A stretch of DNA of 64,000 nt from Persicimonas caeni (lineage in GTDB: Bacteria > Myxococcota_A > Bradymonadia > Bradymonadales > Bradymonadaceae): the NCBI RefSeq assembly GCF_006517175.1, contig NZ_CP041186.1:930001-994000 (forward strand), read 5' to 3'. The notes beneath the pieces were generated by a model, which had not been told where the DNA came from, did no database searches, and worked only from the letters and a program-made list of their open reading frames with translations. The translations under genes were made by a program, and so were the position numbers. This document shows positions 30,019 through 49,133 of this stretch, piece by piece. Position 1 is the first letter of the stretch. Every line of letters begins with the position of its first letter.

Positions 30019-31500
30019 TTAGAAGCGCCACCGTACGCCGGCCATCGCACCGCCGCGAAGCGGGGTCGCCTCCAAGCTCACGGCGGCATCCGACGGGCGC
30101 CGCTCGGGCGACACAAGACGCCACAAGCCCCAGCTCGCCAGACCGAGGCCGGCGGCGATCGAGCCGTACCCGGCGACGCGAGCGACAGTCACCTCGGACT
30201 CGGCCTGCTCGAGCTCGGCCTGGTCGGCGAACGTAATGACTGTGACGCCATCACAATCGGCCGCGCTCGTCCCGTAATCGGTGTCGGGCGAGCACTCGAC
30301 CTCGAGGGCGCGGTTTTCGGCCGCCAGCGCCACCCAGGTGCCCACGCCGACCACCGCGACGCCGCCGCCGACGAGCGACCAGCCCAGCCAATCCGTCTCG
30401 CCGGCGTCGTCATCGACCACCGGAAGCTCACCGTCGCCCACGTTCTGGCGGTATTGCGGCAACACCCGCGCCAGCCCACGGCTGATGGCCCGCTCGTCGG
30501 TATTATCACTCCAGACCGCCTCGCCATGCGACTCCACGCGAACGAAGAGGATGGACTCCTCTGCTTCGGTGGCCGCCGAGCGGGTCACGCCCAGCACCCG
30601 CGGCGCACCGCTCCAGAACGCGACCAGCCGAAGATACGCCTCGGCCTTGCGACGCTGGCGATAGTCACCGCTGGTCATGACCACCGACAGCGGGTCCTCC
30701 GACGACACCGGCGCGACCACCTTTTGCCCCTCGGCGAGCTCGAGCTTCCACACCGGCGCCGTCGACCCACCACAATCCATCGTGACCATGTACTCGACGC
30801 CGGCGGCGACCGGATAGGGCCGCTTCTCGACCGGACTTCCGTTGATGAACGCGGTGCAGTCCTTGCCGTCGATCATCTCGACCTCGAGGGTGGCGCCCCC
30901 CTTGGCGAGCTCCTTTCTCTGCTCTTTGATGAACCGAATGATTGTGGGCGGCGAGGTTGCCGCCGACGGCTCCAGCCCCGGCAACGACTTGACCAAGAGC
31001 TGCGCGACGGCCTTGGCATTGTCTTCTTGGCCGAGGTTTTTGTACGCCCGAATCATGACCAAACCGGCCTGATAGATCTGGTCGGCAAAGTCAGGCCGCC
31101 TGGCCAAGACCTCAGGATTGGCCATCCCCATGTCGAACACCGGCGACAACTTGGCGATCGCGGCCTCGTTGCCCTTGTAGAAGAACTGCTCGACGCCGTC
31201 GGCGATGACGTTCGCCAGCCCCGAGAACTTCGAGGCCACCGCCGCCCGCGGCACAGCCACCTTGCGCTCATCGAGCACCGCCTCGAGCCGATCGCCCATC
31301 ATCACGTCGAACCTCGCCCCGTCCAGAAGCCCCGACACCGTCTGCATCACCCCACCGGAGTGCGCCCCCTCGTCGAGCGCGACCACCGCCACCCGGTGCT
31401 GCACCTCATCATCCGCAGCCACCGGCGGCGCCGCGACGACGACAGCCGGCACGAGCCCCGCCACGGCGACCAATATCCACATCCAAATCTTCATCATCAT
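30019..31500 (-). CDS. Exported protein with C-terminal membrane module, function unknown
   Basis: 493 residues starting MMMKIWMWI with AGGTGG just upstream. A cleavable-looking signal peptide is followed by VAVVALDEGAHSGGVMQTVSGLL, a stretch typical of deltaproteobacterial proteins that handle a TPR-like or peptidoglycan-linked envelope function. There is a helical middle part and a Cys-containing PEGA-like beta segment (CTAFINGSPVEKRPYPV). The C-terminus has two hydrophobic helices (WSLVGGGVAVVGVGTWVAL and GYGSIAAGLGLASWGLWRL) and ends in Phe. The same module ends the protein at 35436-36185. It is probably an envelope protein. Transcription probably starts from the shared element at 31534-31592. 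Confidence 0.75.
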   Translation of the reverse strand: MMMKIWMWILVAVAGLVPAVVVAAPPVAADDEVQHRVAVVALDEGAHSGGVMQTVSGLLDGARFDVMMGDRLEAVLDERKVAVPRAAVASKFSGLANVIADGVEQFFYKGNEAAIAKLSPVFDMGMANPEVLARRPDFADQIYQAGLVMIRAYKNLGQEDNAKAVAQLLVKSLPGLEPSAATSPPTIIRFIKEQRKELAKGGATLEVEMIDGKDCTAFINGSPVEKRPYPVAAGVEYMVTMDCGGSTAPVWKLELAEGQKVVAPVSSEDPLSVVMTSGDYRQRRKAEAYLRLVAFWSGAPRVLGVTRSAATEAEESILFVRVESHGEAVWSDNTDERAISRGLARVLPQYRQNVGDGELPVVDDDAGETDWLGWSLVGGGVAVVGVGTWVALAAENRALEVECSPDTDYGTSAADCDGVTVITFADQAELEQAESEVTVARVAGYGSIAAGLGLASWGLWRLVSPERRPSDAAVSLEATPLRGGAMAGVRWRF

Positions 31501-31533
31501 CTCGTCCACCTAAGAGTACAGTTGTTCGTGCCC

Positions 31534-31592
31534 CTCATTACGGTTTTCGGCAAAAAGCCCCAAATCGTTGCGTACTTTTTGAAAAAAGTTTT
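31534..31592 (-). promoter_or_regulatory. Shared upstream element, copy A
   Basis: This 59-bp sequence begins CTCATTACGGTTTTCGGCA on the plus strand. It recurs at 38970-39027 with about 80 percent identity by eye. It contains the palindrome ACTTTTT-GA-AAAAAGT (31574-31589) and a conserved TCGTTGCGT. It lies 34 nt before the ATG of the 30019-31500 gene, directly after the terminator of the lipoprotein operon. It is probably a promoter plus operator. Confidence 0.55.
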
Positions 31593-31772: not shown

Positions 31773-32822
31773 TCAGGAGCCTCCACAGTACTTGTCACCA
31801 GTCGGACCGCCACACGAGATACTGCCGGGACATTGAGCGCCGAGAGAGCAAGCGTAAGAACATCGGTCTGTAAGCGTCCCTACCTGCTCACAACGTCCAT
31901 CGTCCTGCCCCGAAACCCCACAGTCCGCATTCGACGCACAGGAAGTATCCTGGACCAAATCCACCACCGCTTCACACGTCGTCATCGACTCGACGATACC
32001 GCAGTAGCTATCCTCCGGTGCTCCCGACACACTGGCGCGAGTAATCACCACCGCTCCGTAGGGACGACTACACCCACTCGACACCGTCTTCAAACAATAC
32101 CCATCCGGCAACGCCGTCCCATCGAAATTCATCTCGATGCACGCATGGTTCGCCACACACTCACTATCCGCCTTGCACTTCCCACACGTCCCGACCGTGC
32201 CACGCTCGGTCTGCGTGCACGTGTTCGTCGCCGGGTCGCACGAGTACTCACCACACGCCGTCTCATCGTCGACCGTACACTCCACACACGTTCCACCGGC
32301 ACACACCCCGGCGCCATCCACGCTCGCGCACTGACTGTCGTCGTCGCAGGGCACGCACTCGTTGCTCGCACTGCACTTGGCCGCCCCGGGCGCATCACAA
32401 TGCCCGTCGCTCAGGCACTCCACACACTTGCCTGCGCCGACATCGCATACCGCAGAGTGGCACTGGCCGTCTTCATAACAGTCCACACACTCGTTGCTGG
32501 GACTGCATATCCCGATCGTGCAGTCGCCATCGCGCAGACACGCCACGCACTCACCGCTCGCCTCGTCGCACACCGGCGTCGGATGGGCGCACGTCTGGCC
32601 GCACGGGCCACTATCGGGCTCCACGTCTTCTTCGACATCCTGCGGGCGGGTGTCCTCGGGGCCCGAGTCGGCCGCGTCGGGCGTGAGTTCGGCGTCGGAA
32701 GCGTCCGCGCTCGTCACCTCTGCGTCTCGCTCCTGGACCGTTCCGCCGTCGAAACAAGCGGCGAGGACCAGGCAACACATGCAAATGACGCCGAGGAGTG
32801 CTCTTCGTGTGCTCGCAGACAT
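31773..32822 (-). CDS. Cys-rich Asp-rich lipoprotein, tandem copy 1
   Basis: 349 residues. Signal peptide with lipobox LVLAAC, an Asp/Glu/Pro-rich linker of about 60 residues, then about eight short modules of the form CxxCxxDxxC (for example CVACLRDGDC, CVECLSDGHC, CVPCDDDSQC) resembling Dickkopf-N or EGF-like cysteine ladders. The C-terminal domain of about 95 residues starts at CSRPYGAVV and ends DKYCGGS. ATG 32822 has AGGA 8 nt upstream. Nearly identical to the next gene except in the last 95 residues. Expected to be lipid-anchored with a disulfide-rich stalk on the cell surface or outer membrane. Partner unknown. Confidence 0.82.
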   Translation of the reverse strand: MSASTRRALLGVICMCCLVLAACFDGGTVQERDAEVTSADASDAELTPDAADSGPEDTRPQDVEEDVEPDSGPCGQTCAHPTPVCDEASGECVACLRDGDCTIGICSPSNECVDCYEDGQCHSAVCDVGAGKCVECLSDGHCDAPGAAKCSASNECVPCDDDSQCASVDGAGVCAGGTCVECTVDDETACGEYSCDPATNTCTQTERGTVGTCGKCKADSECVANHACIEMNFDGTALPDGYCLKTVSSGCSRPYGAVVITRASVSGAPEDSYCGIVESMTTCEAVVDLVQDTSCASNADCGVSGQDDGRCEQVGTLTDRCSYACSLGAQCPGSISCGGPTGDKYCGGS

Positions 32823-33020
32823 GTCATTCATCCTCAAAAGCAACTCGTCCCCCTCGCGCGAGGACGAAAGATTGTCGTTCAACCCACGCTACGGATTGGG
32901 CGAAGTGAAAGAAATGCGAGGCGGTGACTCCTTTCGGCCAGCCAAGGCTCTCGGTCAAAACACAACTCTGAGCCGAGTCTTTACCCAGCGAACAGCGCCT
33001 TTCGATATGGGGGTCACTGC
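32823..33020 (-). repeat. Duplicated leader region of lipoprotein copy 1
   Basis: This 198-bp gap matches the gap at 34077-34274 almost base for base, including GGCCGAAAGGAGTCACC and the AGGATGAATGACATG start region. Together with the genes it forms a tandem unit with a period of about 1255 bp. The two copies differ most at the edge near the upstream gene's stop and in a short AT-rich patch at 32951-32973. Confidence 0.75.
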
Positions 33021-34076
33021 TCAAGAGCCTCCACAGTACTCGTCTCCCGTTGGCCCATTACATGTTCTACCCGACGGACAGTCATCACTAGTACCACAGG
33101 AGTAGGTGCAGCGATTTGAAAACGCCCCCACCGTTTCACATCGCCCATCTCCTCGATTAACGGCGCCGCACTCGGAGTCGTTTCCACCGGCACATTCAGT
33201 ACTATCGAGAAAATCACGAACTGCCTCACAACTCGTAACAGATTCGGCAATTCCGCAGTATTCGTCTTCGGGGGCACCTGACAGGCTTGCACGAGTAATC
33301 ACAACCGCTCCGTAGGGACGACTACACCCACTCGACACCGTCTTCAGACAATACCCATCCGGCAACGCCGTCCCATCGAAGTTCATCTCGATGCACGCAT
33401 GGTCCGCCACACACTCACTGTCCGCCTTGCACTTCCCACACGTCCCAACCGTGCCACGCTCGGTCTGCGTACACGTGTTCGTCGCCGGGTCGCACGAGAA
33501 CTCACCACACGCCGCCTCATTGTCGACCGTACACTGCACACACGTGCCGCCGGCACACACCCCGGCGCCATCCACGCTCGCGCACTGGCTGTCGTCGTCG
33601 CAGGGCACGCACTCGTTGCTCGCACTGCACTTTGCCGCCCCGGGCGCATCACAATGCCCGTCGCTCAGGCACTCCACACACTTGCCTGCGCCGACATCGC
33701 ATACCGCAGATTGGCACTGGCCGTCTTCATAGCAGTCCACACACTCGTTGCTGGGACTGCATAGCCCAATCGTGCAGTCGCCATCGCGCAGACACGCCAC
33801 GCACTCACCGCTCGCCTCGTCGCACACCGGCGTCGGATGCGCGCACGTCTGGTCGCACGGGCCACTATCGGGCTCCACGTCTTCTTCGACATCTTGCGGG
33901 CGGGTGTCCTCGGGCCCCGTGTCGGCCGCGTCGGGCGTGAGCTCGGCGTCGGAAGCGTCCGCGCTCGTCACCTCGGCGTCGCGCTCCTGAACCGTTCCGC
34001 CGTCGAAACAAGCGGCGAGGACCAGGCAACACATGCAAATGACGCCCAGGAGTGCTCTTCGTGCGCTTTCAGACAT
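33021..34076 (-). CDS. Cys-rich Asp-rich lipoprotein, tandem copy 2
   Basis: 351 residues with the same signal peptide, lipobox LVLAAC, Asp-rich linker and cysteine ladder as copy 1. For most of the ladder only scattered residues differ, for example CTIGLCSPSNEC against CTIGICSPSNEC. From about residue 280 the C-terminal domain diverges (SCEAVRDFLDSTECAGGND), while its cysteine frame and final YCGGS stay. ATG 34076 was chosen by the AGGA 8 nt upstream. It is in the middle of the minus-strand operon, without its own terminator. Confidence 0.82.
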   Translation of the reverse strand: MSESARRALLGVICMCCLVLAACFDGGTVQERDAEVTSADASDAELTPDAADTGPEDTRPQDVEEDVEPDSGPCDQTCAHPTPVCDEASGECVACLRDGDCTIGLCSPSNECVDCYEDGQCQSAVCDVGAGKCVECLSDGHCDAPGAAKCSASNECVPCDDDSQCASVDGAGVCAGGTCVQCTVDNEAACGEFSCDPATNTCTQTERGTVGTCGKCKADSECVADHACIEMNFDGTALPDGYCLKTVSSGCSRPYGAVVITRASLSGAPEDEYCGIAESVTSCEAVRDFLDSTECAGGNDSECGAVNRGDGRCETVGAFSNRCTYSCGTSDDCPSGRTCNGPTGDEYCGGS

Positions 34077-34274
34077 GTCATTCATCCTCAGAGGTAACTC
34101 GTCCCCCTCGAGCGAGGACGATAGATTGTCGTTCAACCCACGCCACGGCTGGGGCGAAGTGAAAGAAATGCGAGGCGGTGACTCCTTTCGGCCAGCCAAG
34201 AATCTTGATCTAAAATACAATTCTGAGCCGAGCCTTTACCCAGCGAACAGCGCCTTTCGGTACAGTTACGCTGT
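34077..34274 (-). repeat. Duplicated leader region of lipoprotein copy 2
   Basis: Second copy of the leader described at 32823-33020. The gap upstream of copy 3 is unrelated, so copies 1 and 2 arose together while copy 3 is older or was replaced at its 5' end. Confidence 0.7.
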
Positions 34275-35354
34275 TCAAGAGCCTCCACAGTACTTGTCGC
34301 CAGTCGGACCTGCACACGAGATACTGCCGGGACACCTCGCTCCCGTAGTGCATGAATATGTGCAGCGGTTGGACAAACCTAGAACGGTTTCGCAACGACC
34401 ATCAGACTCTCCATTCAACCCACACTCCGCGTCAGTTCCATTCGGACATGCGACGTTATCAATGAGATCAAGTACAGCATCACAAGTAGTTACTGATTCA
34501 TTTACGCCACAATAGTTTTCACTAGTTGCCCCAGATAGGCTCTCGCGGTCCACGATACCCGTGTAAGGCTCCACACACCCACTCGACATCGTCTTGAGGC
34601 AATACCCATCCGGCAACCCCATCCCCTTGAAGTTCATCGGCACACACCGATGTCCCGAACCACACTCACTGTCCGCCTTGCACTTCCCACACGTCCCGAC
34701 CGTGCCCCGCTCGGTCTGCGTGCACGTGTTCGTCGCCGGGTCGCACGAGAACTCGTTGCACGCCGCCTCATTGTCGACCGTACACTGCACACAGGTCCCA
34801 CCGGCACACACCCCGGCGCCATCCACGCTCGCGCACTGACTGTCGTCGTCGCAGGGCACGCACTCGTTGCTCGCACTGCACTTGGCCGCCCCGGGCGCAT
34901 CACATTGCCCGTCGCTCAGGCACTCCACACACTCGCCCGGGTTGGTTTTGCACACCAGCCCGGTACCGCACTGGCCGTCTTCATAGCAGTCCACACACTC
35001 GTTACTGGGACTGCATATCCCAATCGAGCAGTCGCCATTGACCAGACACGCCACGCACTCACCGCTCGCCTCGTCGCACACCGGCGTCGGATGCGCGCAC
35101 GTCTGGCCGCACGGGCCACTATCGGGCTCGACGTCTTCTTCGACATCCTGCGGGCGGGTGTCCTCGGAGCCCGTGTCGGCCGCGTCCGGCGTGAGCTCGG
35201 TGTCGACCGTATCCGAGACATCCTCGCTTTCGACGCCGGTATCACGGCTGTCGTAGTTGCCAGGGTCACTGCAGGCGGAAGAGAAGAGAACAAACAAACA
35301 TCCAACAATCAGCGTCAAAACAGGCGCAGTTCTGCCAAGCATAGCTCCGTCCAT
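34275..35354 (-). CDS. Cys-rich Asp-rich lipoprotein, divergent copy 3
   Basis: 359 residues if ATG 35354 is used; ATG 35342 (MLGRTAPVL) is equally plausible, and neither has a clear ribosome site. The signal peptide is unrelated to copies 1-2 (VLFSSAC lipobox). The linker differs, then becomes identical to them from about ELTPDAADTG onward. One ladder module is changed (CGTGLVCKTNPGEC). The C-terminal domain has its own sequence (CVEPYTGIVDRESLSG) but ends GARCPGSISC...YCGGS, closer to copy 1 than copy 2. Such mosaicism suggests recombination among the three genes. Confidence 0.8.
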   Translation of the reverse strand: MDGAMLGRTAPVLTLIVGCLFVLFSSACSDPGNYDSRDTGVESEDVSDTVDTELTPDAADTGSEDTRPQDVEEDVEPDSGPCGQTCAHPTPVCDEASGECVACLVNGDCSIGICSPSNECVDCYEDGQCGTGLVCKTNPGECVECLSDGQCDAPGAAKCSASNECVPCDDDSQCASVDGAGVCAGGTCVQCTVDNEAACNEFSCDPATNTCTQTERGTVGTCGKCKADSECGSGHRCVPMNFKGMGLPDGYCLKTMSSGCVEPYTGIVDRESLSGATSENYCGVNESVTTCDAVLDLIDNVACPNGTDAECGLNGESDGRCETVLGLSNRCTYSCTTGARCPGSISCAGPTGDKYCGGS

Positions 35355-35435: not shown

Positions 35436-36185
35436 TCAGAAGCGCAGCTCGAGTTCAACCCCCATCCCGCCGTTCGCGTCGAACGTCGCGCGAAGCTCCG
35501 GCGAGGTGACCTGGGAAGTTGCTCGCGCCGGGGCTTCGGCGCCAGCCAGGCGGTAGATGCCCCAACCAAGTGCGCTGATGCCGACGGCGCTCAAACCTGC
35601 GCCGACAACGCGGTAAGTCGTGACGCCCGTACGCTTCTGGTCGAACTGCTCGGCGCTCAGTTGGCTATAAGCATCGACGCCTGCGCAACCTGACTTGTCG
35701 GCGTTCGACTGATTGGAGCAGCGCAATCTCTCGGCTTCTCCCTCGGCATAGACCAACGAGGCGATTCCTCCGGCGACCAGAGCAGTCCCGCCGCCGACGA
35801 GCGACCAGCCGAAGACGTCGGCCTCGCTTGTGGTGTGGTCTTCGCTCTGGGCGAGTTGCTGGCGCAGACGCTGCTCGAGCACGGCGACGTTTTCGACATC
35901 GGGAGCGCCGGCCAGCTGATCGCGGTAGTCATCGAGGACGTCGAGGGCGAGTTGTAATTCCCCCATCTTCTCGAGCACGAGAATGCGCCGGTGGATGAAG
36001 CGAGGCTGGGGTTCGGCGCGGTAGGCCAACTCGAGCAGCTCGAGCGCCTCGTTATATTTACCGACCTGCTCGGCCTCCATGGCTCTCTGGAAATGCCCGT
36101 CCGCTGTGGGCCCCGCGGCAAACGCCAAACCGGCAATCAGCAGACCAGCGATGGTCAACATCAAGATTCGCATGTATCGCAACAT
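35436..36185 (-). CDS. TPR-containing exported protein with C-terminal membrane module
   Basis: 249 residues. The signal peptide (MLRYMRILMLTIAGLLIAG...AFA) is followed by two TPR-like helical pairs (FQRAMEAEQVGKYNEALELLELAYRAEP and a second one around ILVLEKMGELQLALDVL). Two hydrophobic helices follow (VFGWSLVGGGTALVAGGIASLVY and VVGAGLSAVGISALGWGIYRL), and the end is ELELRF. The helix pair matches the one in the 30019-31500 protein. Lies 81 nt before lipoprotein copy 3 in the same operon. A scaffold role for the lipoproteins is inference. Confidence 0.78.
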   Translation of the reverse strand: MLRYMRILMLTIAGLLIAGLAFAAGPTADGHFQRAMEAEQVGKYNEALELLELAYRAEPQPRFIHRRILVLEKMGELQLALDVLDDYRDQLAGAPDVENVAVLEQRLRQQLAQSEDHTTSEADVFGWSLVGGGTALVAGGIASLVYAEGEAERLRCSNQSNADKSGCAGVDAYSQLSAEQFDQKRTGVTTYRVVGAGLSAVGISALGWGIYRLAGAEAPARATSQVTSPELRATFDANGGMGVELELRF

Positions 36186-36214: not shown

Positions 36215-37576
36215 TCACTGGCATTCTTGGGTTCGCTGAACGACACTGCTGTCACACTCGTACCAGGAACAGGAATCTAAGGCGCAGTTCGTACCAACTG
36301 ATGAACAGATCTGGTAATCCCCCGTGGCACCGCACCCCCAGAGGTTATTCGAGACCCAGCCGGCAGTTCCCGTACATTGCTTACCCACGTTGAGTTGCTG
36401 ACAAGAGGCCCCGGTATTCGTCCACCGGTAGTCGATGGTGCCATCGCAGTCGTAGTCCCAATCCTCAACTTGGACTGCATAGGGATCTGGGCCCATAGGT
36501 TGGTCAAACCAAGCCGTTTGACCTGGATAAGCGTCTGCAACCGCGTCGTTACAGTCGGTTGAATTCCCTCCACCAGGTCGAACGTCGGTCCAAGTCGCAG
36601 TGGACGTGCCACATCCGGTTGACGCGGTAGGCATCGTGCAGGACGGGCGCCCACCAGAAGCACCAGCGGAGAAGCCATCGCCATCACAGTCGATGTACCA
36701 AGTCTTGACGTCGACTGCTGTACTGTCATCGACGCGCCCATCGCAGTCATTATCCACGCCGTCGCCACACATCTCGTCGGCATTTGGGTGAACCGCAGCG
36801 ACCGTGTCGTCACAATCACCCGCGTTTTCGCTGCTCAAGTAACCATCTGGCAGTGTGCCGTCCGTACAAAGCGTCTGCACACCTCCCGTGGTGTAGCCGT
36901 CACCATCCGAGTCGACATAGCCGCTCACCGAAATGTATTTTGCCGAATCGTTATCATCGCAATCAGTATCGTCGCTGACGTAGCCCGAGGGCGGTTCACA
37001 AGCGATTGTCGAGACGCTGGGATCGCCAAAGCCATCGCCGTCGCTGTCGGCAAACCAAGTGGGAGCATCGACGGCGTCATCCTCATCGGTCGCACCATCG
37101 CAGTCATTGTCAATCCCATCGCCGCAAAGCTCATCGATGGGGGTTCCGGGCGTCGCGTTGCATGATGCGGTCTGGTCGTCGATGCACTCATACTGACCTG
37201 TCGCCTGACAGGCTCCCACGCCGACAGTGCATTCTCCGGACAAGAACCCATTGTCGACCTCACCGTCGCAGTCGTTATCAACTCCGTCACACAGCTCAGC
37301 GGTTGGCTGACAGACGTCTTCGGCACGCACATCTAGAGCGACATCATTCTCGCGCACATCTAGATGCGCGGTATCTTCGGCGGCTACCGTAGTATCTGTT
37401 GTGGCGGCGTCCTCCTCATCGCTGTCTCGAGATGACTCGCCGTCCCGGACGTCGCTGGCATAGACTGCAGCGTCGGTTTGACGGGCGTCACTTCCCGCGT
37501 CGAAGCATCCCCAAGCCGCCCACAGCATGACTTGCGAGATCGTCAAAAGTCGCAAAACACTCCAAAATCTTTGCAT
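36215..37576 (-). CDS. DNDCDG-repeat (MopE-type metal-binding motif) lipoprotein 1
   Basis: 453 residues. A signal peptide ends around AAWGC, followed by an Asp-rich linker. Repeated metal-binding-type motifs follow: LCDGVDNDCDGEVD, CGDGIDNDCDGATDE, DTDCDDNDS, DSDGDGYTTG and CGDGVDNDCDGRVDD. These belong to the putative metal-binding motif found in MopE and many myxobacterial surface proteins. The last 100 residues are Cys-rich without the motif and end RTQECQ. ATG 37576 has GGAGG 8 nt upstream. It is 14 nt after its paralogue's stop, so they are cotranscribed. Calcium binding is likely by motif but not proven. Confidence 0.85.
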   Translation of the reverse strand: MQRFWSVLRLLTISQVMLWAAWGCFDAGSDARQTDAAVYASDVRDGESSRDSDEEDAATTDTTVAAEDTAHLDVRENDVALDVRAEDVCQPTAELCDGVDNDCDGEVDNGFLSGECTVGVGACQATGQYECIDDQTASCNATPGTPIDELCGDGIDNDCDGATDEDDAVDAPTWFADSDGDGFGDPSVSTIACEPPSGYVSDDTDCDDNDSAKYISVSGYVDSDGDGYTTGGVQTLCTDGTLPDGYLSSENAGDCDDTVAAVHPNADEMCGDGVDNDCDGRVDDSTAVDVKTWYIDCDGDGFSAGASGGRPSCTMPTASTGCGTSTATWTDVRPGGGNSTDCNDAVADAYPGQTAWFDQPMGPDPYAVQVEDWDYDCDGTIDYRWTNTGASCQQLNVGKQCTGTAGWVSNNLWGCGATGDYQICSSVGTNCALDSCSWYECDSSVVQRTQECQ

Positions 37577-37590
37577 AGCTCGGCCCTCCC

Positions 37591-38889
37591 TTAGTGGCAC
37601 TCTTGAGTCTTGGAAACGACACTGTCGTTACAGTACGACGGGTTGAAAGAGCAGTTCTGGTAATCCGCGGTCTGCCCACAAGACGGCGTATAGTCAGCGA
37701 CCCAGCCTGAGCTGTCCTCGCTGCTAAGTCCGCAATTGCCGCAACTAGCGCCGTCGGAAGTGAATCGCTTGTCGACATACCCATCGCAGTCGTAGTCCCA
37801 CTTTTCGTTGTAGTTCGCGCCAGTCATTGGTCCCGAGAAGTAGCTCGTCTGACCCGGGAAGGCGTCCGCCATGTCGTCGTTGCAGTCGACGTTGCTTTGA
37901 GACGTCGGACGTGTCTGGGTCCAGTCAGGGTTCGTCGTCGAGCAGCCAGGGTTGACGGTCGGTTTGTCGCAGGAGAGGACGCTGGCGACCGTATCAGCCG
38001 CAAACCCATCCCCATCGCAGTCGACGTACCAGGTGACCGCATCATCCGCAGTGGACTCGTCGGTGGTTCCGTCGCAGTTGTTGTCTTTGCCGTCGCATAC
38101 CTCGGTGATGCTGGGGTTTGCGGAGGCGTCCGCGTCGTCACAATCACCGGCCCTTTCGGAGGCCACGTAGCCGTCGGGCAGTGTGCCATCGGTGCATAGT
38201 GTCTGCTCGCTGCCTGCCGTATAACCGTCGCCGTCTTGGTCGGCCCATCCGCTGACGAGCGTATACAAACCCGCGTCAGTGTCGTCACAATCGGTGTCGT
38301 TGGCGACGTAGTCGGCGGGCTGCTCGCAGGCCGTCGTCGAGACGGCCGCATCGCCGTAACCATCTCCGTCGCTGTCGGCGTACCAGGTCGCCGCTCCGGG
38401 CGCGTCCTCTTCGTCGGTCTCACCGTCGCAGTCGTTGTCGACTCCATCGGAGCAGACTTCGTCGGCCGGCGTCCCCGGCGTGGCGTTGCATTCGGTGGTG
38501 CCGTCCTGCGCACACACGTATGTTCCGTCGGACTCACACGCGCCCACGCCCACCGAGCAGGACGTGCCCAGGTCGAAATCCTCGTCGACCTCGCCATCGC
38601 AGTCATTGTCCAGCGCGTCACACAGTTCGACGCCTCCGTTCGAAGGCTGACACGATTCGACGTCCTCCTGCGTCTGGCTGTCCTGCAACTCGGCGTCCCG
38701 CTGCGACTCGCCATCGGTCCCAGTATCCACAGGCTGCTCCGCATCTTGCGGGTCGGCGTCCGGTAGGCTGCCGTCTTGCTCGGCCAGGCCCCCCGTGTCC
38801 TTGTCCTTGTCGACGATCGCTCCTCCGTCGAAGCAGGCACCCGCTCCCAGGCACCAGATCCAAATACACAGCAATCCCAGTCGTCTCAT
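37591..38889 (-). CDS. DNDCDG-repeat (MopE-type metal-binding motif) lipoprotein 2
   Basis: 432 residues, a paralogue of the next gene with the same module order: signal with lipobox GAGAC, Asp-rich linker, CDALDNDCDGEVDEDF, CSDGVDNDCDGETDE, DSDGDGYGD, DQDGDGYTAG and CDGKDNNCDGTTDES, then a Cys-rich end with KTQECH. The tail CFDGG after the lipid Cys is shared with the Cys-rich lipoproteins. GAGG lies 7 nt before ATG. It is the first gene of the minus-strand envelope operon that seems to run to the terminator at 31604, and the shared upstream element copy B lies 81 nt before it. Confidence 0.85.
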   Translation of the reverse strand: MRRLGLLCIWIWCLGAGACFDGGAIVDKDKDTGGLAEQDGSLPDADPQDAEQPVDTGTDGESQRDAELQDSQTQEDVESCQPSNGGVELCDALDNDCDGEVDEDFDLGTSCSVGVGACESDGTYVCAQDGTTECNATPGTPADEVCSDGVDNDCDGETDEEDAPGAATWYADSDGDGYGDAAVSTTACEQPADYVANDTDCDDTDAGLYTLVSGWADQDGDGYTAGSEQTLCTDGTLPDGYVASERAGDCDDADASANPSITEVCDGKDNNCDGTTDESTADDAVTWYVDCDGDGFAADTVASVLSCDKPTVNPGCSTTNPDWTQTRPTSQSNVDCNDDMADAFPGQTSYFSGPMTGANYNEKWDYDCDGYVDKRFTSDGASCGNCGLSSEDSSGWVADYTPSCGQTADYQNCSFNPSYCNDSVVSKTQECH

Positions 38890-38969
38890 TACTCGTCCTC
38901 GACTCCACGAAGATGTCTCGTTTGCCTCAGTAATGGGGGCGGAGCCACTGACCAGGCACGACCGCCCCT

Positions 38970-39027
38970 CTCATTACGGTTTTCGGCAGAGCACCCCGAT
39001 TCGTTGCGTCTTTTTTGGAAAAAACTT
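38970..39027 (-). promoter_or_regulatory. Shared upstream element, copy B
   Basis: It matches copy A (31534-31592): CTCATTACGGTTTTCGGCA, a CCCC block, TCGTTGCGT and a T-run/A-run dyad (TTTTTT-GG-AAAAAA). It lies upstream of the first gene of the minus-strand operon. The rest of the 38890-39349 gap holds a short inverted repeat GATCCAA/TTGGATC (39082-39101) and nothing else that I can name. Confidence 0.55.
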
Positions 39028-40504: not shown

Positions 40505-41659
40505 GTGACCAAGTCAACCAAGCTCGCATTCGTCTGCATCTTCGTGCTGCTCTTCGCCGCCTGCGGTGATGATGGCGACCTCAACAACGGCCCGGGCATC
40601 CCGCCCGCCGATAGCGGTACCGGAGAAGACACGGGCGTCGACGCCGACATGGGCGTCGACGTCGGCCCCGATGCTCCCGACCCCGACACCGGCGATCCCG
40701 ATACTGGCGATCCTGACACCGGCGGCACCGACGCAGACACCGGCACGCCGGCCGAGGGCGCGAGTTGCACGAGTCCCACGGATCTGGGCAGTCTGGCGGC
40801 CGGCCAAGAGCACGTATTCGACACGAGCCTGCTCGAGCCGGCGTCGACACTCGACACGAGCTGCGATCTCGGCTCGACCGGCTCCGGGGTGCGCGTGTTC
40901 GCCCTCCAGGTCGACGTCACCTCCCGCGTGGAGTTCTGGACCAGCTTGAGCCCCTCACGCCTCGACCTGCGTGATGGCGGCTGCTCGAGCCCCACCGAAG
41001 TCATCACGTGCACCGACGGCGGCACCTACACCGCCACACTCGAGGCAGGCAAGACCTACCATCTGGCCGTCTGGGGCGACTTCAATGTCGGCGACTTCCA
41101 GATGCGCGCCAACGTCCAAGAGGCCCTGTGCAACCCGAGCGAGCCTAACTGGTGTGACAGCGGCGAACTCAACGAGTGCAACCGCGGCACGAGCATCAAC
41201 ACCTACGCCTGCGCGGCGAGCACGTGCGCCGACGGGGCGAGCTGCAGCGGCGATGCCTGCTCGGCGGCGACCGCCGTCGATTTGTCGGCGGGCACCGCGG
41301 TCACCGTCTCCGGCGACACCGGCGGCTACACGGGCACCTGGACCTCCAATCAAATGACCAACTGCGGGTTCAGCCAGGGCGCCAGCGGACTCGACACGCC
41401 GTATGCCGAGATGTTCTTCGAGGTCAGCGGCCTGCAACGAAACGACCAGCTCGTCGTCGAATCAACCAGCCAGGGCGACTACGCGTTCTTCGTGCTCGAC
41501 GCCTGCGGCGCCACCGAATGTTTGGCGGCGGTCGACGATTCCGACACCGGTGCGCAGCGCCTCGACTGGCGTATTCCGCAAGACGGCACGTACTTCGTGG
41601 TGATCGAGTCGCTCGCCGCCGGCGATCGTTCGTTCGACTTCGAGTTCAGCACACAGTGA
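40505..41659 (+). CDS. PPC-like secreted lipoprotein 2 (paralogue)
   Basis: 384 residues with the same architecture as the preceding gene: lipobox LFAAC, a linker containing three DPDTGD-like units, PPC-like domain 1 (LEAGKTYHLAVWGD), a Cys-rich link (WCDSGELNECNRG...CADGASCSGDAC) and PPC-like domain 2 ending PQDGTYFVVIESLA. GTG start with AGGA 7 nt upstream. It begins 33 nt after the first, so they form one unit. The two are clearly homologous but far less similar than the tandem minus-strand lipoproteins. Confidence 0.82.
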   Translation: MTKSTKLAFVCIFVLLFAACGDDGDLNNGPGIPPADSGTGEDTGVDADMGVDVGPDAPDPDTGDPDTGDPDTGGTDADTGTPAEGASCTSPTDLGSLAAGQEHVFDTSLLEPASTLDTSCDLGSTGSGVRVFALQVDVTSRVEFWTSLSPSRLDLRDGGCSSPTEVITCTDGGTYTATLEAGKTYHLAVWGDFNVGDFQMRANVQEALCNPSEPNWCDSGELNECNRGTSINTYACAASTCADGASCSGDACSAATAVDLSAGTAVTVSGDTGGYTGTWTSNQMTNCGFSQGASGLDTPYAEMFFEVSGLQRNDQLVVESTSQGDYAFFVLDACGATECLAAVDDSDTGAQRLDWRIPQDGTYFVVIESLAAGDRSFDFEFSTQ

Positions 41660-41753: not shown

Positions 41754-41842
41754 GCCTTTTGGGTCAGCTCAATTGATTATGGCAGGTTTCCCTCTCACTG
41801 CCCCATTCGCCTCCTCGAGGCGTAAGGGCAAGGGTGGCGGCA

Positions 41843-44800
41843 ATGAATCACAAAGGCGTTATAGGCGTATTCACGAGCTCTCTAGCGCTCGTTATGGCAA
41901 TGGGTGCAGCGTCTCCGGCGATGGCCGCCGGTGAGTGGAAGGCTCCAGACGTCACGATCTTTTTGGGACCCGACTTCGTCGATGACGGGCAGACCGACAA
42001 GGGCGGCCCGACGATGAACGAGACCATCTCCAACTACTACTTTGCTGGAGATTGCACCTACGACCCGGTAACGCTAGAGCCGTCTGACACCTGCGATCGT
42101 CTGCGTTACGGCTTGACGATGTATCGGGGAGCCGACGAAGACCTGGCGAATAACCCCGGCTACTGCCCCACCCCCTACGCCGCGCTCGTCCCCCCGCAAG
42201 AAGACGGCGGCGGCAAGCTCATCAACGACGGCGAGCCGTACAAGATGTCACAGCTGCAGACCGATGCGGGTACCGCCTACTGCAGCGACTATTCTCAGCG
42301 CACCTACGGCACCTCGATGCTGGCCTATCGAGACTACCGTTTCGGCACCGAGCTCGGCACCAACTGGCCCGATCGCCCGCAGCTCAGCGTGACGATGATC
42401 GAAAAGCTTCCGCAGACCAACGACACCACCCAAGATCAAGTGCGTGAGTCGCTGTTGGCGGCTTGTGAGCTGTACGAAGGCAACGGAAACCAGCATCTGT
42501 CGATGCCAACTTGGGTAATGCTCTCCCCGCTTGCGACGGATGACGCGACGCTTTACGGAGGCATGCTCGCCGCGGCCGGCGGCACAGGCCAGTGCTGCTA
42601 CGCCAGCACGCTCGGCGGTACCTGCGACCCCAGCGATCCGACTCAGGTGATCGACATGTGCGATCACCTGCGTCAACTATCGTCGGGAACTGCCGTGCAC
42701 ACCGAGTCGAAGCTTCGCTCTGAGATCACCGCTGACCGCTACGCTTGCACGGCGACCGGTCAGCCGGCGGGACCGGGTGCGATGCAAAATAGCAACTTCA
42801 GCGATATGAAGTGCCACCTTCAGGGCAGCCCGTGCGACGACAGTGTCGCCAACCCCGCCCACTTGTGGCCTATCTTCTCGTGCATCCAGCTGCGCCCGTC
42901 GAATATCCCTGCCGACCAGCTCTCGGTAGAGTACTGTGGATTGATCGATGGCCAACCCATCGACTCCACCCATGGCGACAAAGACGGCGACGGTTGCATC
43001 ACGCTGACGCCCGGCAACGGCATCGAGTTCGTCGACGAGAACAAGAACCTCTACTACTTCACTCGCGGCGGCAGCGAGCTCTGCCAGAGTATTGGCAGCG
43101 GCGACTCGTACACCACGGTCACCTGCCCCAACCTCAATAAGTTGTGCGATCTGAACGACGGCAGTCAGTGCTCGCTGGGCCGGATTGCCTGCATCAACGA
43201 CCAAGAAGTGTGCGAGCGCTTCCCCGGCAACGACAGCTGCGACTCGGTTGCCTGTGGCAAAGAGTCGATCCACCAGACCGGACTGGTGCAGCCCAACGTG
43301 CAGTTCGTGGTCGACCGCTCCGGCTCGATGAGCGGCGACCGGTGGACCTCGGCCAAGGCCGTCACCAAGAACCTGGCCAGCTGGAGTTACAAGGGCAGCG
43401 GATGCGACGACGACGGCCAGCACTGTGACCGAGTGCGTCTGGGCGTACACTTCTGGAGCTCGTACCCTGCTTATGCCTACGGCGCCCAAGAGGACCTGAC
43501 CGGCACGATGGTCGAGGATGCGTTCGACGACAACACGCCGAACGGCGGCACCGACTTCCACGTGGCCGCCCAGCAACTGCGAGACGAGACGGCCCTGCAA
43601 GACGATAATCGGCCAAACACCGGCGTCTTCGTGACCGACGGTATTCCGAACCACGCCTTTACGACTCGCGAAGCTGTCCGACTGCTGTGTGACATCAAAA
43701 AGCGCCCCGGCTCGCCGGTGGCGACCTACGCGGTGGGCTATCAGGATGGCAACCAGAACCTGAACTCATTGGTGGCTGCCGCCGGTGGCACGGGATCGTG
43801 CTGCTTTGCCGGCGATGGCACCTGCGACACCGAGCGCGAAAAGTCACCCTGTGACATGTACCAGTACGAGTTGGATAACGGCGCGCGTATCGTCACCGAG
43901 TTCGAGACGTGGCTGCAAACCCACGGCACGCTCAGCTACTCCGCCTGGGTCGAGATCACCGACTCGCACGAATCCCGCGGCCACACCACGGACGCTTACC
44001 GAACCGGCACGGTCGCCGATGACCTGGACATGGTCTACGACGTGGCGGCCTTCGCCTACGACCACTTGGTCGGAGATCCCGACACGATCGACTGCGCATC
44101 GAACTCGGGCGACCCGAACGCGACCTCGGCAAACCCCGGTGCGTTCTTCCGCTACATTCTCTGTGAGATGGAACCCACCCTCTCGCACGTGGTGCGCCAG
44201 CGCTACGACGACAACAAGCTTCCCGATGAGTACGGCTCTCTGGCCGACTACTGGAAACTCAAGCGAGTCGACGACGACTCGGCGTTCCTCGACAACAACT
44301 ACGTATGCACCGGCGCGAAATTCGCCGACGACCAAAACGCCCTCTACACCGAGTTGCAGGGCATCCTGTCGAATATGGAGTGCACCTACCCGCTGTCGCT
44401 TCTCGCCGACATGGATAGCGCCCCCGAGTGGCCCGATGCCACCCAGGTCAAGCTCTACCTGCCGGGATTGGGTGACGTGGTCCCCGTGCCGCATATCGAC
44501 GACACAGCCGCGCAAAGCGACTTCCGAGACAGCTTGTGCACCCTCGGAATCGCCAACTGTGACAACTATTTGGACGATGGTTGGAGCTTTGCCAACCAGG
44601 GCCGCACCGCTATCAAGCTCTCTGCAGAGTTGTGCGACTTGACCAAGACCCCGGATGTTCAGCGAGTGACCACCCAGGTCTGCCGCATGTGCAACCCCGA
44701 CTTGGTGGGTACCGCCTGCGACTACGTCGCCTGCACGCCCGACGCGCCGCCCGCGAGCCCGACGGTGGGTGACACTGCCTACACGGCCGCCGGCGAGATG

Positions 44801-45379
44801 TGCGCCTGGAAAGAGTACCCCTGCCCGGAGAACCCGGACCGTACCTGCAGCGGATGGACCAAGACCGGCCGCTGCGGCATGGGCGCCTACGCCTGTGACG
44901 AAGACGGCTTCCCGTACTGCGACCAGAACCGCAGCCGGATGCCCGAGATCTGCAACAACGTCGACGATGATTGCGACGGCTCCATCGATGACCTGGCGGA
45001 GAACCTGGAGGAGTGGGACGATCCCCAGTACAGCATCGCCGGCGAAGAATACGATGGTTGGTACTGCAGCTACCGTGATTCGTGCACTTGTCCTCCGGGC
45101 CACACCGACTCAATCGGCGGCACCAAAGCCGACGGTCCGGACGAATTCACCCGGATGATGGAGCACCAGCAGCAGAACGGTCTGTGCCAGTGTGGAGAGG
45201 GCATCGTCACAGGCGGCAACACCGCCTACGAGCCCACCCGCACCTGGGCGCCCGACGAGCCCGCAGGCGAGCCCCAGGCCGCTTGTTCGGCGAGTGGGGA
45301 TAACGCGCCCACCGGTCTGGGTGCCGCGCTTGTCGCCCTGCTCTTTGGTCTTGCCGGTTGGCGCCGGCGTCGCAACTGA
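41843..45379 (+). CDS. Secreted VWA-domain protein with C-terminal sorting tail, copy 1
   Basis: 1178 residues. A signal peptide ends near PAMAAG. Residues about 30-340 form a VWA-like half without a MIDAS. Residues about 485-720 form a full VWA domain: FVVDRSGSMSG (MIDAS), FVTDGIPNHAF, then AAAGGTGSCCF. Further Cys-rich regions follow, and CNNVDDDCDGSIDD at about 1034 is the metal-binding-type motif. The tail is Cys-Ser, then a hydrophobic helix (GAALVALLFGLAG) and WRRRR, like MYXO-CTERM/GlyGly-CTERM sorting signals. ATG 41843 was chosen over GTG 41834. Probably a surface adhesin or large binding protein; the ligand is unknown. Confidence 0.85.
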   Translation: MNHKGVIGVFTSSLALVMAMGAASPAMAAGEWKAPDVTIFLGPDFVDDGQTDKGGPTMNETISNYYFAGDCTYDPVTLEPSDTCDRLRYGLTMYRGADEDLANNPGYCPTPYAALVPPQEDGGGKLINDGEPYKMSQLQTDAGTAYCSDYSQRTYGTSMLAYRDYRFGTELGTNWPDRPQLSVTMIEKLPQTNDTTQDQVRESLLAACELYEGNGNQHLSMPTWVMLSPLATDDATLYGGMLAAAGGTGQCCYASTLGGTCDPSDPTQVIDMCDHLRQLSSGTAVHTESKLRSEITADRYACTATGQPAGPGAMQNSNFSDMKCHLQGSPCDDSVANPAHLWPIFSCIQLRPSNIPADQLSVEYCGLIDGQPIDSTHGDKDGDGCITLTPGNGIEFVDENKNLYYFTRGGSELCQSIGSGDSYTTVTCPNLNKLCDLNDGSQCSLGRIACINDQEVCERFPGNDSCDSVACGKESIHQTGLVQPNVQFVVDRSGSMSGDRWTSAKAVTKNLASWSYKGSGCDDDGQHCDRVRLGVHFWSSYPAYAYGAQEDLTGTMVEDAFDDNTPNGGTDFHVAAQQLRDETALQDDNRPNTGVFVTDGIPNHAFTTREAVRLLCDIKKRPGSPVATYAVGYQDGNQNLNSLVAAAGGTGSCCFAGDGTCDTEREKSPCDMYQYELDNGARIVTEFETWLQTHGTLSYSAWVEITDSHESRGHTTDAYRTGTVADDLDMVYDVAAFAYDHLVGDPDTIDCASNSGDPNATSANPGAFFRYILCEMEPTLSHVVRQRYDDNKLPDEYGSLADYWKLKRVDDDSAFLDNNYVCTGAKFADDQNALYTELQGILSNMECTYPLSLLADMDSAPEWPDATQVKLYLPGLGDVVPVPHIDDTAAQSDFRDSLCTLGIANCDNYLDDGWSFANQGRTAIKLSAELCDLTKTPDVQRVTTQVCRMCNPDLVGTACDYVACTPDAPPASPTVGDTAYTAAGEMCAWKEYPCPENPDRTCSGWTKTGRCGMGAYACDEDGFPYCDQNRSRMPEICNNVDDDCDGSIDDLAENLEEWDDPQYSIAGEEYDGWYCSYRDSCTCPPGHTDSIGGTKADGPDEFTRMMEHQQQNGLCQCGEGIVTGGNTAYEPTRTWAPDEPAGEPQAACSASGDNAPTGLGAALVALLFGLAGWRRRRN

Positions 45380-45513: not shown

Positions 45514-45608
45514 CCCCACTAAGCTGACGATGTCACATACTCAAATCAAAAAAGTATATTTTTTTACTGATGCGCACTGCAGGCGCATCGACGACACAGG
45601 GTCAGAAA

Positions 45609-48600
45609 ATGGGGAATCAACGTTTCAAGCAGACGCTCTTGGGGGCCGTCACGCTGGGCACCTTCCTAGCATTTGCCCCGAGTGCGCACGCAGACGGGGA
45701 GTGGAAGGCGCCGGACGTCACGATCTTGTTAGGCGCTGATATCTTTTCGGGAGGCCAGACCGACAAGTCAGGCCCGATGCTCAACACGACGATCAGCAAC
45801 TACTGGGAGGATGGGGCGTGCACCTACGACCAAAACGGTGTGCCCAGTTCGGACTGCGATCGCTTGCGCTTCGGCCTGACGATGTTTCGTGGCCCGAATA
45901 CGTCAAATAACATCTGTCCGGACCCGATCGCGCCGCTGTCACCGCCCCAAGAAGACGGTGGCGGCCAGCTTACCACGGGCGGCCCCTACCACGTCGCCCA
46001 ACTCCAGAGCGACGCCGGTGATCTGTATTGCGACGATTTCAAGCAGCGGACCCTCGGCGAGGCGATGCTCGAGTATCGAGACAATCGCTTCAACAACGAA
46101 TTGGGTACGAACTGGCCTGACCGCCCCCAATTGACGCTGCAACTCATCAAGAACCTGCCACAGACCAACAATGCCACCCAGGACCAGGTGCGCGAAGCAC
46201 TCTTGGCCGCCTGCGAATTGTACCAAGGCAATGGCGGCCAACATCTCTCGTTGCCGACCTGGGTGATGACCTCGCCGCTGGCTGACGCCGACGCGGAGCT
46301 GTTCGGGGGCATGCTCGCAGCAGCCGGGGGAACCGGGCAATGCTGTTACAAGCCGGCATTTGCGGGCAGCTGCGATCCGACCGATTCGAGCCAGACGCTC
46401 GACATGTGTGAGCATCTGCTCGAGCAGAATAGCAGCGGGATCGTCCACACCGAAACGCGCCTTCGCAGCGACATCGACGACGCGAAGTACAATTGCACGG
46501 CCACCGGCAAGCCTGCTGCGCCCGGTGCGATGAAGCACGACAAGTTCAGCGACATGAAGTGTAACTTGCAGGGAAGCCCCTGTAGCGGCAACCACCCCGG
46601 AGAGCCGGCCTATCTGTGGCCGGTGTTCTCGTGCATCCAGCTGCGCCCGTCGAATATCCCTCCCGACCAGCTCTCCGTGGAGTACTGCGGTGAGATCGAC
46701 GGCGAGCCCATCGACGCGTCGCACGGCGACAAAGATGGCGACGGCTGCATTACGCTGACGCCGGGCAACGGCATCGAATTCGTCGATGAGAACAAGAATC
46801 TCTATTACGTGTCGCAAGGCGGCAGTTCGCTTTGCCAGAGCATCGGTAGCGGTGACTCGACGATCAACGTCAACTGCCCGAACCTCAACGAGCTTTGCGA
46901 CCTGAACGACGGCAGCCAGTGCACGCTGGGTCAATACCAGTGCATCAACAACCGACAGGTATGTGAGCGCTTTCCGGGCAACGACAGTTGCGACTCGGCC
47001 GCCTGTGGCCAGGAGCAGGTCCACGACGTCGGCCTCGTGCAGCCCAACGTGCAGTTCGTGGTCGACCGCTCCGGCTCGATGTCTGGCAACCGTTGGACTT
47101 CGGCCGAGCAAGTCACCGAGAACCTGGCCACCTGGAGCTACGAGGGGGCAGGTTGTGAGGACGACGGAACCTATTGCGACAAAGTTCGCCTCGGCGTGCA
47201 CTTCTGGAGCTCTTACCCGGCCTACGCGTACGGGGCTCAGGAAGACATGACGGGCACCATGATCGACGACGCCTACGACGACAACGCTCCCAGCGGCGGC
47301 ACCGCGTTCCACGTCGCCGCCCAACAGCTTCGTGATGAAGCAGCGCTGCAAGACTCGACGCGGCCCAACGCCGGTATCTTCGTGACCGATGGTGCGCCCG
47401 ACCAGGCGTTCACCACGCGCGAAGCGGTACGACTGCTGTGTGACCTGAAGACGCGCTCCGGCTCGCCGGTGGCCACCTACTCGGTGGGCTATCAGGACGG
47501 CAACCAGCAGCTCAACTCGCTCATCGCCGCGGCCGGCGGCACGGGCAGCTGCTGCTTCGCCAGCGATGGTACCTGCGACACCGAGCGTGAAGCTTCGCCG
47601 TGCGAGATGTACCGCTACGAGCAAGACAACGGCCAGCGCATCGTCAACGAGCTCGAGACCTGGCTGCAGACCTACGAGCCGGTCTGGTACGCCGGTTGGC
47701 GAGAAATCGTCGATTCGCACGCGGCCCGCGGGCACACCAAGGACTCGTATCGCACCGGTACAGTCGCTGATGATCTCGACATGGCGCTCGACTTCTCGAT
47801 GTTTGCGTACGCCAACCTTGTGGGGAACCCCGACAACATCGACTGCGATTCGAACGCCGGCAACCCCAACGCCACGGGCAGCAACCCGGGCGCCTTCTAC
47901 CGCTACATGATTTGCGAGATGGAGGACACATTGTCGTATGTCGTCCGTCAACGCTACGACTGGGGCAACGACAGGGCTGAAGAATACGACAGCAGCGAGT
48001 ATACCGCGCTCAAGCGCGTCCAGGACGACTCGGCCTTCTTGGACAACGACTACGTGTGCACCGGCTCGAAGTTTGCCGACGATGAGAACGCGCTCTACGC
48101 CGAGCTGCAGGCCATCTTGTCGAGCATGGAATGCACCTACCCGCTTTCACTGCTCGACGGCATGGACTCGGCGCCCCAATTCACCGACGCCACCCGCGTC
48201 AAGCTGTACGTGCCGAGCCTGGGCACTGTCGTTGACGTGCCGCACACCGATGACACCGATGCACAGCGCGACTTCAAAGACGAATTGTGCAACCTGGGCA
48301 TCGCCAACTGCGCGAGCTATCAGGATGATGGCTGGAGCTTTTCGAACGAAGGACGCACTTCCGTCAAGCTGACCCCCGAGTTGTGTGACCTGACCAAGAC
48401 CGACCTCGTCGAACAGCTGACCACCCAGGTCTGCCGCATGTGCGACCCCGATCTGGTCGGCACCTCCTGTGACTACGTCGCTTGCACGCCCAGTTCGCCG
48501 CCGTCGAACCCGACCACCGGCGACACCGCCTACACGGCCGACGGCGAGATGTGTGAGTTCACCGAGTTCCCCTGTGCGGACAACCCGGACGATACTTGCA

Positions 48601-49133
48601 GCGGATGGACCAAGACCGGTCGCTGCGGCATGGGCGCCTACGCCTGCGACGCCGACGGCTTCCCCTACTGCGAGCAAGTTCGCAGCCGGATGCCCGAGAT
48701 CTGCAACAACGTCGACGACGATTGCGATGGCTCCATCGACGACCTTTCCGAGAACCTGGACGAGTGGGACGAGCCTCAGTACAGCATCGCCGGCGAAGAG
48801 TACGACGGCTGGTACTGCAGCTACCGCGACACCTGCACCTGCCCTCCGGGTCACACCGACTCGGTCGGCGGCACCAAAGCCGACGGCGCAGACGAGTTCA
48901 CCAAGATGATGGAGCACCAACAGCAGTACGGCGAGTGCCAGTGTGGTGAGGGCATGGTCTCGGGAGAGAACACCGCCTACGAGCCCACCCGCACCTGGGC
49001 GCCCAGCAAGCCCGAGGGCGAGCCTCAGGCCGCCTGCTCGGCGGCCGGTGACAACGCCCCCACCGGCTTGGGTGCAGCGATCGCCGCCCTGCTCTTCGGC
49101 TTGGTTGGCTGGCGACGACGCCGCGACGGCTAA
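45609..49133 (+). CDS. Secreted VWA-domain protein with C-terminal sorting tail, copy 2
   Basis: 1174 residues, collinear with copy 1. The signal peptide ends near SAHA. The N-terminal VWA-like half (DVTILLGADIFSGG where a MIDAS would be) is followed by a full VWA domain at about 480-715 (FVVDRSGSMSGN, FVTDGAPDQAF), then CNNVDDDCDGSIDD and the tail CSAAGDNAPTG, hydrophobic helix, WRRRRDG. Similarity is highest in the VWA and C-terminal parts. ATG 45609 (MGNQRFKQ) was chosen because the signal peptide starts there. It converges with radA, 6 nt apart. Confidence 0.85.
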   Translation: MGNQRFKQTLLGAVTLGTFLAFAPSAHADGEWKAPDVTILLGADIFSGGQTDKSGPMLNTTISNYWEDGACTYDQNGVPSSDCDRLRFGLTMFRGPNTSNNICPDPIAPLSPPQEDGGGQLTTGGPYHVAQLQSDAGDLYCDDFKQRTLGEAMLEYRDNRFNNELGTNWPDRPQLTLQLIKNLPQTNNATQDQVREALLAACELYQGNGGQHLSLPTWVMTSPLADADAELFGGMLAAAGGTGQCCYKPAFAGSCDPTDSSQTLDMCEHLLEQNSSGIVHTETRLRSDIDDAKYNCTATGKPAAPGAMKHDKFSDMKCNLQGSPCSGNHPGEPAYLWPVFSCIQLRPSNIPPDQLSVEYCGEIDGEPIDASHGDKDGDGCITLTPGNGIEFVDENKNLYYVSQGGSSLCQSIGSGDSTINVNCPNLNELCDLNDGSQCTLGQYQCINNRQVCERFPGNDSCDSAACGQEQVHDVGLVQPNVQFVVDRSGSMSGNRWTSAEQVTENLATWSYEGAGCEDDGTYCDKVRLGVHFWSSYPAYAYGAQEDMTGTMIDDAYDDNAPSGGTAFHVAAQQLRDEAALQDSTRPNAGIFVTDGAPDQAFTTREAVRLLCDLKTRSGSPVATYSVGYQDGNQQLNSLIAAAGGTGSCCFASDGTCDTEREASPCEMYRYEQDNGQRIVNELETWLQTYEPVWYAGWREIVDSHAARGHTKDSYRTGTVADDLDMALDFSMFAYANLVGNPDNIDCDSNAGNPNATGSNPGAFYRYMICEMEDTLSYVVRQRYDWGNDRAEEYDSSEYTALKRVQDDSAFLDNDYVCTGSKFADDENALYAELQAILSSMECTYPLSLLDGMDSAPQFTDATRVKLYVPSLGTVVDVPHTDDTDAQRDFKDELCNLGIANCASYQDDGWSFSNEGRTSVKLTPELCDLTKTDLVEQLTTQVCRMCDPDLVGTSCDYVACTPSSPPSNPTTGDTAYTADGEMCEFTEFPCADNPDDTCSGWTKTGRCGMGAYACDADGFPYCEQVRSRMPEICNNVDDDCDGSIDDLSENLDEWDEPQYSIAGEEYDGWYCSYRDTCTCPPGHTDSVGGTKADGADEFTKMMEHQQQYGECQCGEGMVSGENTAYEPTRTWAPSKPEGEPQAACSAAGDNAPTGLGAAIAALLFGLVGWRRRRDG

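Follow-up and report, generated by a model that had tools for sequence, protein, structure and literature searches.

Across 19 kb of the genome under study the envelope genes fall into five sets of neighbouring paralogues, an arrangement that an earlier note on this DNA had taken for one dedicated surface system. Do the five sets belong together, or do separate gene groups simply lie side by side? The stretch is part of a 64-kb window, by which we mean the whole piece of DNA analysed (G000:C1:930001-994000; G-codes denote genomes, and G000, the host's own, comprises 8.05 Mb in a single contig). It divides into a minus-strand Module A at 30.0-38.9 kb (TPR/TM-hairpin proteins, Cys-rich lipoproteins and MopE-motif lipoproteins) and a plus-strand Module B at 39.3-49.1 kb (two PPC-like lipoproteins and two VWA proteins). 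The helix proteins are labelled helA and helB, the MopE-motif lipoproteins mopA and mopB, and the host's family f1. The features are as follows.

23312-49139, no strand: block between SURF1 and radA that is missing in G003 and G005 (gene-order comparison)
30019-31509, minus: helA, Module A, exported, with a C-terminal TM hairpin and an aromatic C-terminal end (homologues 31-36% identical in 8 relatives, aligned)
31773-32882, minus: Cys-rich lipoprotein 1, Module A, with lipobox LAAC and an Asp-rich linker (likely start 32831)
33021-34220, minus: Cys-rich lipoprotein 2, Module A (likely start 34085)
34275-35354, minus: Cys-rich lipoprotein 3, Module A
35436-36185, minus: helB, Module A, exported TPR protein with a C-terminal TM hairpin as in helA (TPR matches slightly below cut-off)
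36215-37600, minus: MopE-motif lipoprotein 2, Module A (PF11617, E 9e-16, three stretches)
37591-38889, minus: MopE-motif lipoprotein 1, Module A (PF11617, E 8e-18, three stretches; 10-bp overlap with MopE-motif lipoprotein 2)
38890-39334, no strand: divergent intergenic region between Modules A and B (sequence read)
39335-40471, plus: PPC-like lipoprotein A, Module B, class II, the partner class of MIDAS-type VWA (45-row tree; AlphaFold2)
40505-41659, plus: PPC-like lipoprotein B, Module B, class I, the partner class of MIDAS-less VWA (tree, support 100/99)
41834-45379, plus: VWA protein 1, Module B, comprising signal peptide, MIDAS-less half, MIDAS half, Cys-rich region with a sub-threshold MopE motif, and MYXO-CTERM tail
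41897-43153, plus: MIDAS-less (type I) half of VWA protein 1 (type-I profile 336 bits; DxSxS replaced around GQTDKGGP)
43244-43891, plus: MIDAS (type II) VWA domain of VWA protein 1, with DRSGSM (PF00092, E 7e-7; type-II profile 287 bits)
45281-45373, plus: MYXO-CTERM sorting tail of VWA protein 1 (TIGR03901)
45570-49133, plus: VWA protein 2, Module B, a tandem duplicate with the architecture of VWA protein 1 (likely start 45609)

All five reported paralogue sets are present where they had been placed. The helix proteins (30019-31509 and 35436-36185) share 34% identity over 138 C-terminal residues (E 2e-14), the Cys-rich trio 71-86% (its closest pair 93% at the DNA level over 917 bp), the MopE or "DNDCDG" pair about 49%, the PPC-like pair 25% over the whole length (E 8e-21) and the VWA pair, with open reading frames of 1181 and 1187 aa, 72%. 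The claim that all are exported is borne out by the translations, read by eye, in which the Cys-rich, MopE and PPC-like proteins show lipobox-type signals and the helix and VWA proteins Sec-type ones. The Asp-rich linkers ascribed to most of them come after the lipobox in all three lipoprotein sets and are absent from the helix proteins; acidic linkers are frequent among lipoproteins of the host lineage. The DNDCDG motif, said to recur in the VWA proteins, could be traced as a half motif in VWA protein 1, but at 19.6 bits it stays below the Pfam cut-off of 27, which mopA (58 bits) and mopB (65 bits) both exceed. Genome-wide, the host carries the MopE motif at 120 places and the MYXO-CTERM tail 50 times above cut-off, so that sharing either feature ties no genes together. 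A shared control region had been proposed at about 38.9-39.35 kb; the divergent gap (38890-39334) is real, but it gave no sign of shared control, with no Rfam match, no RNA element and weak sites only in a promoter and terminator scan.

Gene neighbourhoods in relatives, the comparison that the earlier note had suggested, separate the two modules. Relatives were searched with one protein per set, and 54 neighbourhoods were fetched and read; many relatives are drafts whose flanks are interrupted at contig ends, and their genes were called with a home-made caller and six-frame profiles. No joint recurrence of the five sets was found. In the flanks of 34 other PPC-VWA loci, homologues of the Cys-rich and MopE-type proteins and of helA were not found, and helB (TPR) was matched just twice and weakly (G002:C316 and G017:C97). 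Conversely, a PPC-VWA pair is missing from all 20 loci that had been chosen for a Cys-rich, helix or MopE gene. Compared with these 54 other loci, this window alone has both modules side by side. PPC-like and VWA genes co-occur in nearly every genome of f1 without the other three sets. In G005 the MopE, helA, helB and Cys-rich genes form a complete set at 2.340-2.349 Mb and the PPC-VWA copies lie elsewhere, at 1.904, 2.274 and 2.736 Mb. Since the five sets do not recur together, one dedicated system is unsupported; what stands of that proposal is a two-part lipoprotein-VWA module within the stretch. Judged from gene order, the paralogue sets appear to form two independent modules that merely meet in the window, and in these genomes neither neighbouring paralogue sets nor common acidic or MopE-type motifs are a good argument for one system. 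The family-specific lipoprotein-VWA surface module is the gain from an observation that was sound but over-joined in its interpretation.

Each VWA protein of the window is an internal duplication, missed by the earlier reader, in which a MIDAS-less half precedes a MIDAS half. Because an alignment of full VWA proteins put the MIDAS-less single proteins on the C-terminal half, the halves were classed with a separate profile for each. Further profiles covered the lipoprotein, the C-terminal Cys-rich/MopE segment and the segment that follows the MIDAS VWA domain. In VWA protein 1 PF00092 matches residues 488-650 (30 bits; cut-off 23.8), and the DxSxS of the MIDAS reads VVDRSGSM in the C-terminal half of both copies. 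In their N-terminal halves it is absent, replaced by GPDFVDDGQTDKGGP / GADIFSGGQTDKSGP. Relatives have NGQSxNxGP-like letters there, and the MIDAS type is marked by DxSGSM; in genomes from several genera the motif position of the MIDAS-less type reads like GGxxxxNGQSxNxGP, and this recurring replacement argues for a conserved change, not random decay. The structural model of the MIDAS-less half has a mean pLDDT of only 55, which leaves the profile match as the main ground for assigning it a VWA fold; the model weakly matched the VWA domains of TRAP, factor B and VWF A2 with E of about 1e-3 to 1e-2 (best 8e-4).

Among all proteins found, the two halves are joined in the window's two proteins only. 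MIDAS-less VWA proteins occur in 6 of the 21 genomes of the host family and in 0 of 358 others in the phylum. A contig search with the MIDAS-less alignment returned four loci, two in a Lujinxingiaceae MAG and two in "Myxococcales" sediment MAGs; a contig search with a single VWA protein as query returned no relatives. Between the window's copies dN is 0.20 and dS about 1.1 (dN/dS about 0.18), which indicates that the duplication is old and under purifying selection.

The PPC-like lipoproteins are a family-wide feature. Their profile is present in 21/21 genomes of the host family, and in 358 other genomes of the phylum no full-length match was found, only partial matches inside longer proteins. 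The AlphaFold2 model of lipoprotein A (mean pLDDT 82) shows a disordered acidic N-terminal tether followed by two all-beta (beta-sandwich) domains, and the lipoproteins have 13 invariant cysteines. The best PDB match of the model is the tandem collagen-binding domain pair s3as3b of ColG (5iku; E 8e-10), likewise two tandem beta-sandwiches. With a whole-model TM-score of only 0.24 we claim a resemblance of fold alone, which is the sole sense of "PPC-like"; the lipoprotein differs from ColG in its 14% identity, its invariant cysteines and the lack of a Pfam PPC match, the Pfam search of both lipoproteins giving nothing beyond chance level.

Of the 31 VWA units that were informative, 30 have a lipoprotein gene directly upstream on the same strand (counting the window's pair of VWA genes once and excluding a VWA gene at a contig start); the exception is a MIDAS-less VWA gene without a lipoprotein neighbour (G006:C102). 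The tree of 45 lipoproteins resolves three groups. Class I (support 100/99) unites 6/6 partners of MIDAS-less VWA proteins with the window's lipoprotein B. Class II (support 82/65) holds all partners of MIDAS-type VWA proteins, the upstream members of two-lipoprotein loci and the window's lipoprotein A, and a third clade contains the downstream "second lipoprotein" of the other two-lipoprotein loci (11/11). Lipoprotein B is the sole second lipoprotein in class I, and its placement in the downstream group was rejected (AU p 0.023, one test with long branches present). At the 18 single-lipoprotein loci all six MIDAS-less partners fall inside one clade and all twelve MIDAS partners outside it, so that VWA type changes once on the tree, a result equalled by 1 of 2000 label shuffles. 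G000, G005 and G006 hold both VWA types and their lipoproteins follow the type, hence the match is not one of genome relatedness. Given that the window's VWA proteins are fusions of type I and type II, one lipoprotein per class beside them is as expected, and we regard this match as the strongest sign that the pairing may be functional. A simple rule by which the number of lipoproteins equals the number of VWA halves was rejected: two lipoprotein genes lie upstream of several of the single MIDAS-type VWA genes, and two VWA proteins of 905-947 aa have one each. The agreement of class and type suggests that lipoprotein and VWA protein act together on the cell surface.

Both window VWA proteins end in MYXO-CTERM tails, also missed by the earlier reader. 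Against the TIGR03901 cut-off of 20 bits they scored 21.2 (VWA protein 1) and 19.5 (VWA protein 2), and in the genome scan both were above cut-off (29.3 and 26.9 bits). MIDAS-less single proteins with a complete end have a tail of Cys and hydrophobic helix in 6/6 cases, with a clear Arg-rich end in 4/6; among MIDAS-type VWA proteins some carry a tail and most do not. MYXO-CTERM surface proteins such as TraA of Myxococcus xanthus are sorted by the myxosortase MrtX (PMC11980579). The window's VWA proteins resemble TraA in signal peptide, Cys-rich ectodomain and C-terminal Cys, hydrophobic helix and Arg run. They differ in that the ectodomain consists of two VWA domains, a dedicated lipoprotein gene adjoins, and many MIDAS-type homologues lack the tail. 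An MrtX-like protease match in the host genome and most relatives reaches 95.9 bits, below the curated cut-off of 180. A second parallel comes from Streptococcus sanguinis, whose type IV pilus carries a VWA minor pilin at its tip (PMC12075869), likewise a surface protein whose VWA domain has a MIDAS; the window's VWA proteins, however, have no pilin-type N-terminus and no nearby pilus genes, and they add a MIDAS-less paralogous half and a lipoprotein partner. At the "second lipoprotein" loci L087, L089, L120-L122, L124, L126, L128 and L132 the VWA proteins have no MYXO-CTERM tail (L076 is an exception), as if the second lipoprotein replaced it.

We consider it probable, if only just, that the stretch comprises two independent envelope modules, locally duplicated and lying in a variable slot, of which the plus-strand one encodes cognate lipoprotein-VWA surface complexes. 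A lipoprotein with an acylated Cys, an acidic tether and two disulphide-rich beta-sandwich domains is made beside a secreted, disulphide-rich VWA protein, each lipoprotein class going with one VWA type. In the host genome a MIDAS-less and a MIDAS unit have fused into a single chain, about 1180 residues long, that ends in a myxosortase-type tail, one lipoprotein per class being kept. The sequences establish the pairing of the genes, the agreement of class and type, the fusion, the restriction to the family and the sorting signals. Beyond this, the two partners would bind each other at the outer surface. There the lipoprotein may dock or hold the VWA protein (a tail is missing from several MIDAS-type VWA proteins), and the MIDAS half may serve adhesion or cell-cell recognition by binding a metal-dependent ligand. 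The sequence data thus far predict cognate surface complexes in adhesion or recognition, and such a role is plausible.

Alternatively, the pair could be linked by inheritance only, with separate actions (a protease-like or scavenging lipoprotein, a free adhesin) and with the tandem copies as neutral amplification. Operon-like tandem duplication alone would carry the pairs along, and the match in copy number is imperfect. Yet at a divergence of about 0.5-2 changes per site the classes still match the VWA types, and beside the fused VWA protein both classes have been retained, with one lipoprotein each. Joint duplication alone accounts for some of this agreement; it does not account for the continued adjacency of 30 of 31 pairs across 21 genomes. 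We judge this explanation unlikely, though it deserves to be taken seriously.

The cognate-complex reading could be carried further. Bradymonabacteria are contact-dependent predators (PMC11509652, PMC7460792) with kin discrimination in the absence of a type VI secretion system (PMC11509652), and the host is consistent with a predatory member of this group; no paper that we found on their contact killing or kin discrimination names the surface proteins involved, and a literature search for VWA proteins in Bradymonadales returned nothing relevant. The lipoprotein-VWA pairs might be a bradymonabacterial recognition system, matched and diversified by duplication and fusion, that mediates prey contact or kin discrimination; we put this forward as a speculation with a low chance of being right. 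As a two-gene surface module that is family-wide, missing in that form from the other sampled genomes of the phylum, and whose parts co-segregate by class, the pairs provide a short, testable list of candidates for contact killing and kin recognition, and the fused VWA proteins with one lipoprotein per class are a natural experiment on pairing specificity.

That metal binding (copper or calcium) is the main function, with the VWA and lipoprotein parts as a surface metal store, seems very improbable. In its favour, mopA and mopB both pass the cut-off for the MopE-type motif (Pfam "Cu-binding_MopE", PF11617), each in three stretches, and the VWA proteins carry it at a sub-threshold score; DxDxDG-like loops and a conserved Cys-rich C-terminal region point the same way. 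Still, the motif is a generic module in the host genome, very common in the phylum (up to 176 places per genome) and present in one sub-threshold copy per VWA protein, and nothing links mopA or mopB to copper. Least probable of all is a single surface system that unites the five families around a shared divergent promoter, for which adjacency, a divergent layout around a 445-bp gap, general export and shared linkers and motifs would speak, since the neighbourhoods largely refute it and the shared features are usual in this genome and lineage.

The minus-strand module may be a variant of a Cys-rich-lipoprotein/TPR-hairpin cluster that at other loci has Ser/Thr kinases as neighbours. Two loci of G012 (C5, C17) have helA immediately next to a Cys-rich gene, and in G004 helA and helB are adjacent. 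Cys-rich pairs lie beside TPR proteins with a similar hairpin in the host genome at 0.27 Mb, in G004:C12 and in G005 at 4.24 Mb, in each case also beside Ser/Thr-kinase-like genes (L101, L108, L109), and one of these hairpin-bearing TPR proteins has a PEGA match. A Cys-rich lipoprotein of G005 (L094:14465-15655) carries MopE-type DNDCDG motifs and is a fusion of two families, which supports a tie between the Cys-rich and MopE families of Module A. The trio (31773-35354) is a mosaic: synonymous divergence is mostly low in the core (0.04-0.3 between copies 1 and 2) and saturated in nearly all comparisons over the last ~80 residues. The simplest reading is that gene conversion has recently homogenised the core and left the variable end alone. 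Cys-rich lipoprotein 1 was rejected as a TraA (NF033759), with 36.6 bits against the 750 needed, Cys-rich repeats only and no tail. helA, helB and many homologues have a short strand-like end whose last residue is Phe (WRF, LRF, GRF), reminiscent of the signal at the C-terminus of outer-membrane barrels, though a TM hairpin alone is evident.

In G003 and G005, two related genera, the gene order is cox genes, SURF1, radA, ompA, with SURF1 adjoining radA. The window shows this gene order too, but 25.8 kb (23312-49139) separates SURF1 from radA (region 22511-50603), containing xanthine-dehydrogenase-type genes and then both modules. G004 has three other genes between SURF1 and radA, and in G006 SURF1 is directly followed by helA; these differing contents mark the site as a variable slot. 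As for marks of a mobile genomic island, the 64-kb window contains no tRNA, and no recombinase was recognised among its called genes. Within the respiratory gene cluster of the window a protein encoded at 10990-11949 has a very acidic, low-complexity N-terminal stretch (Glu/Asp/Ser).
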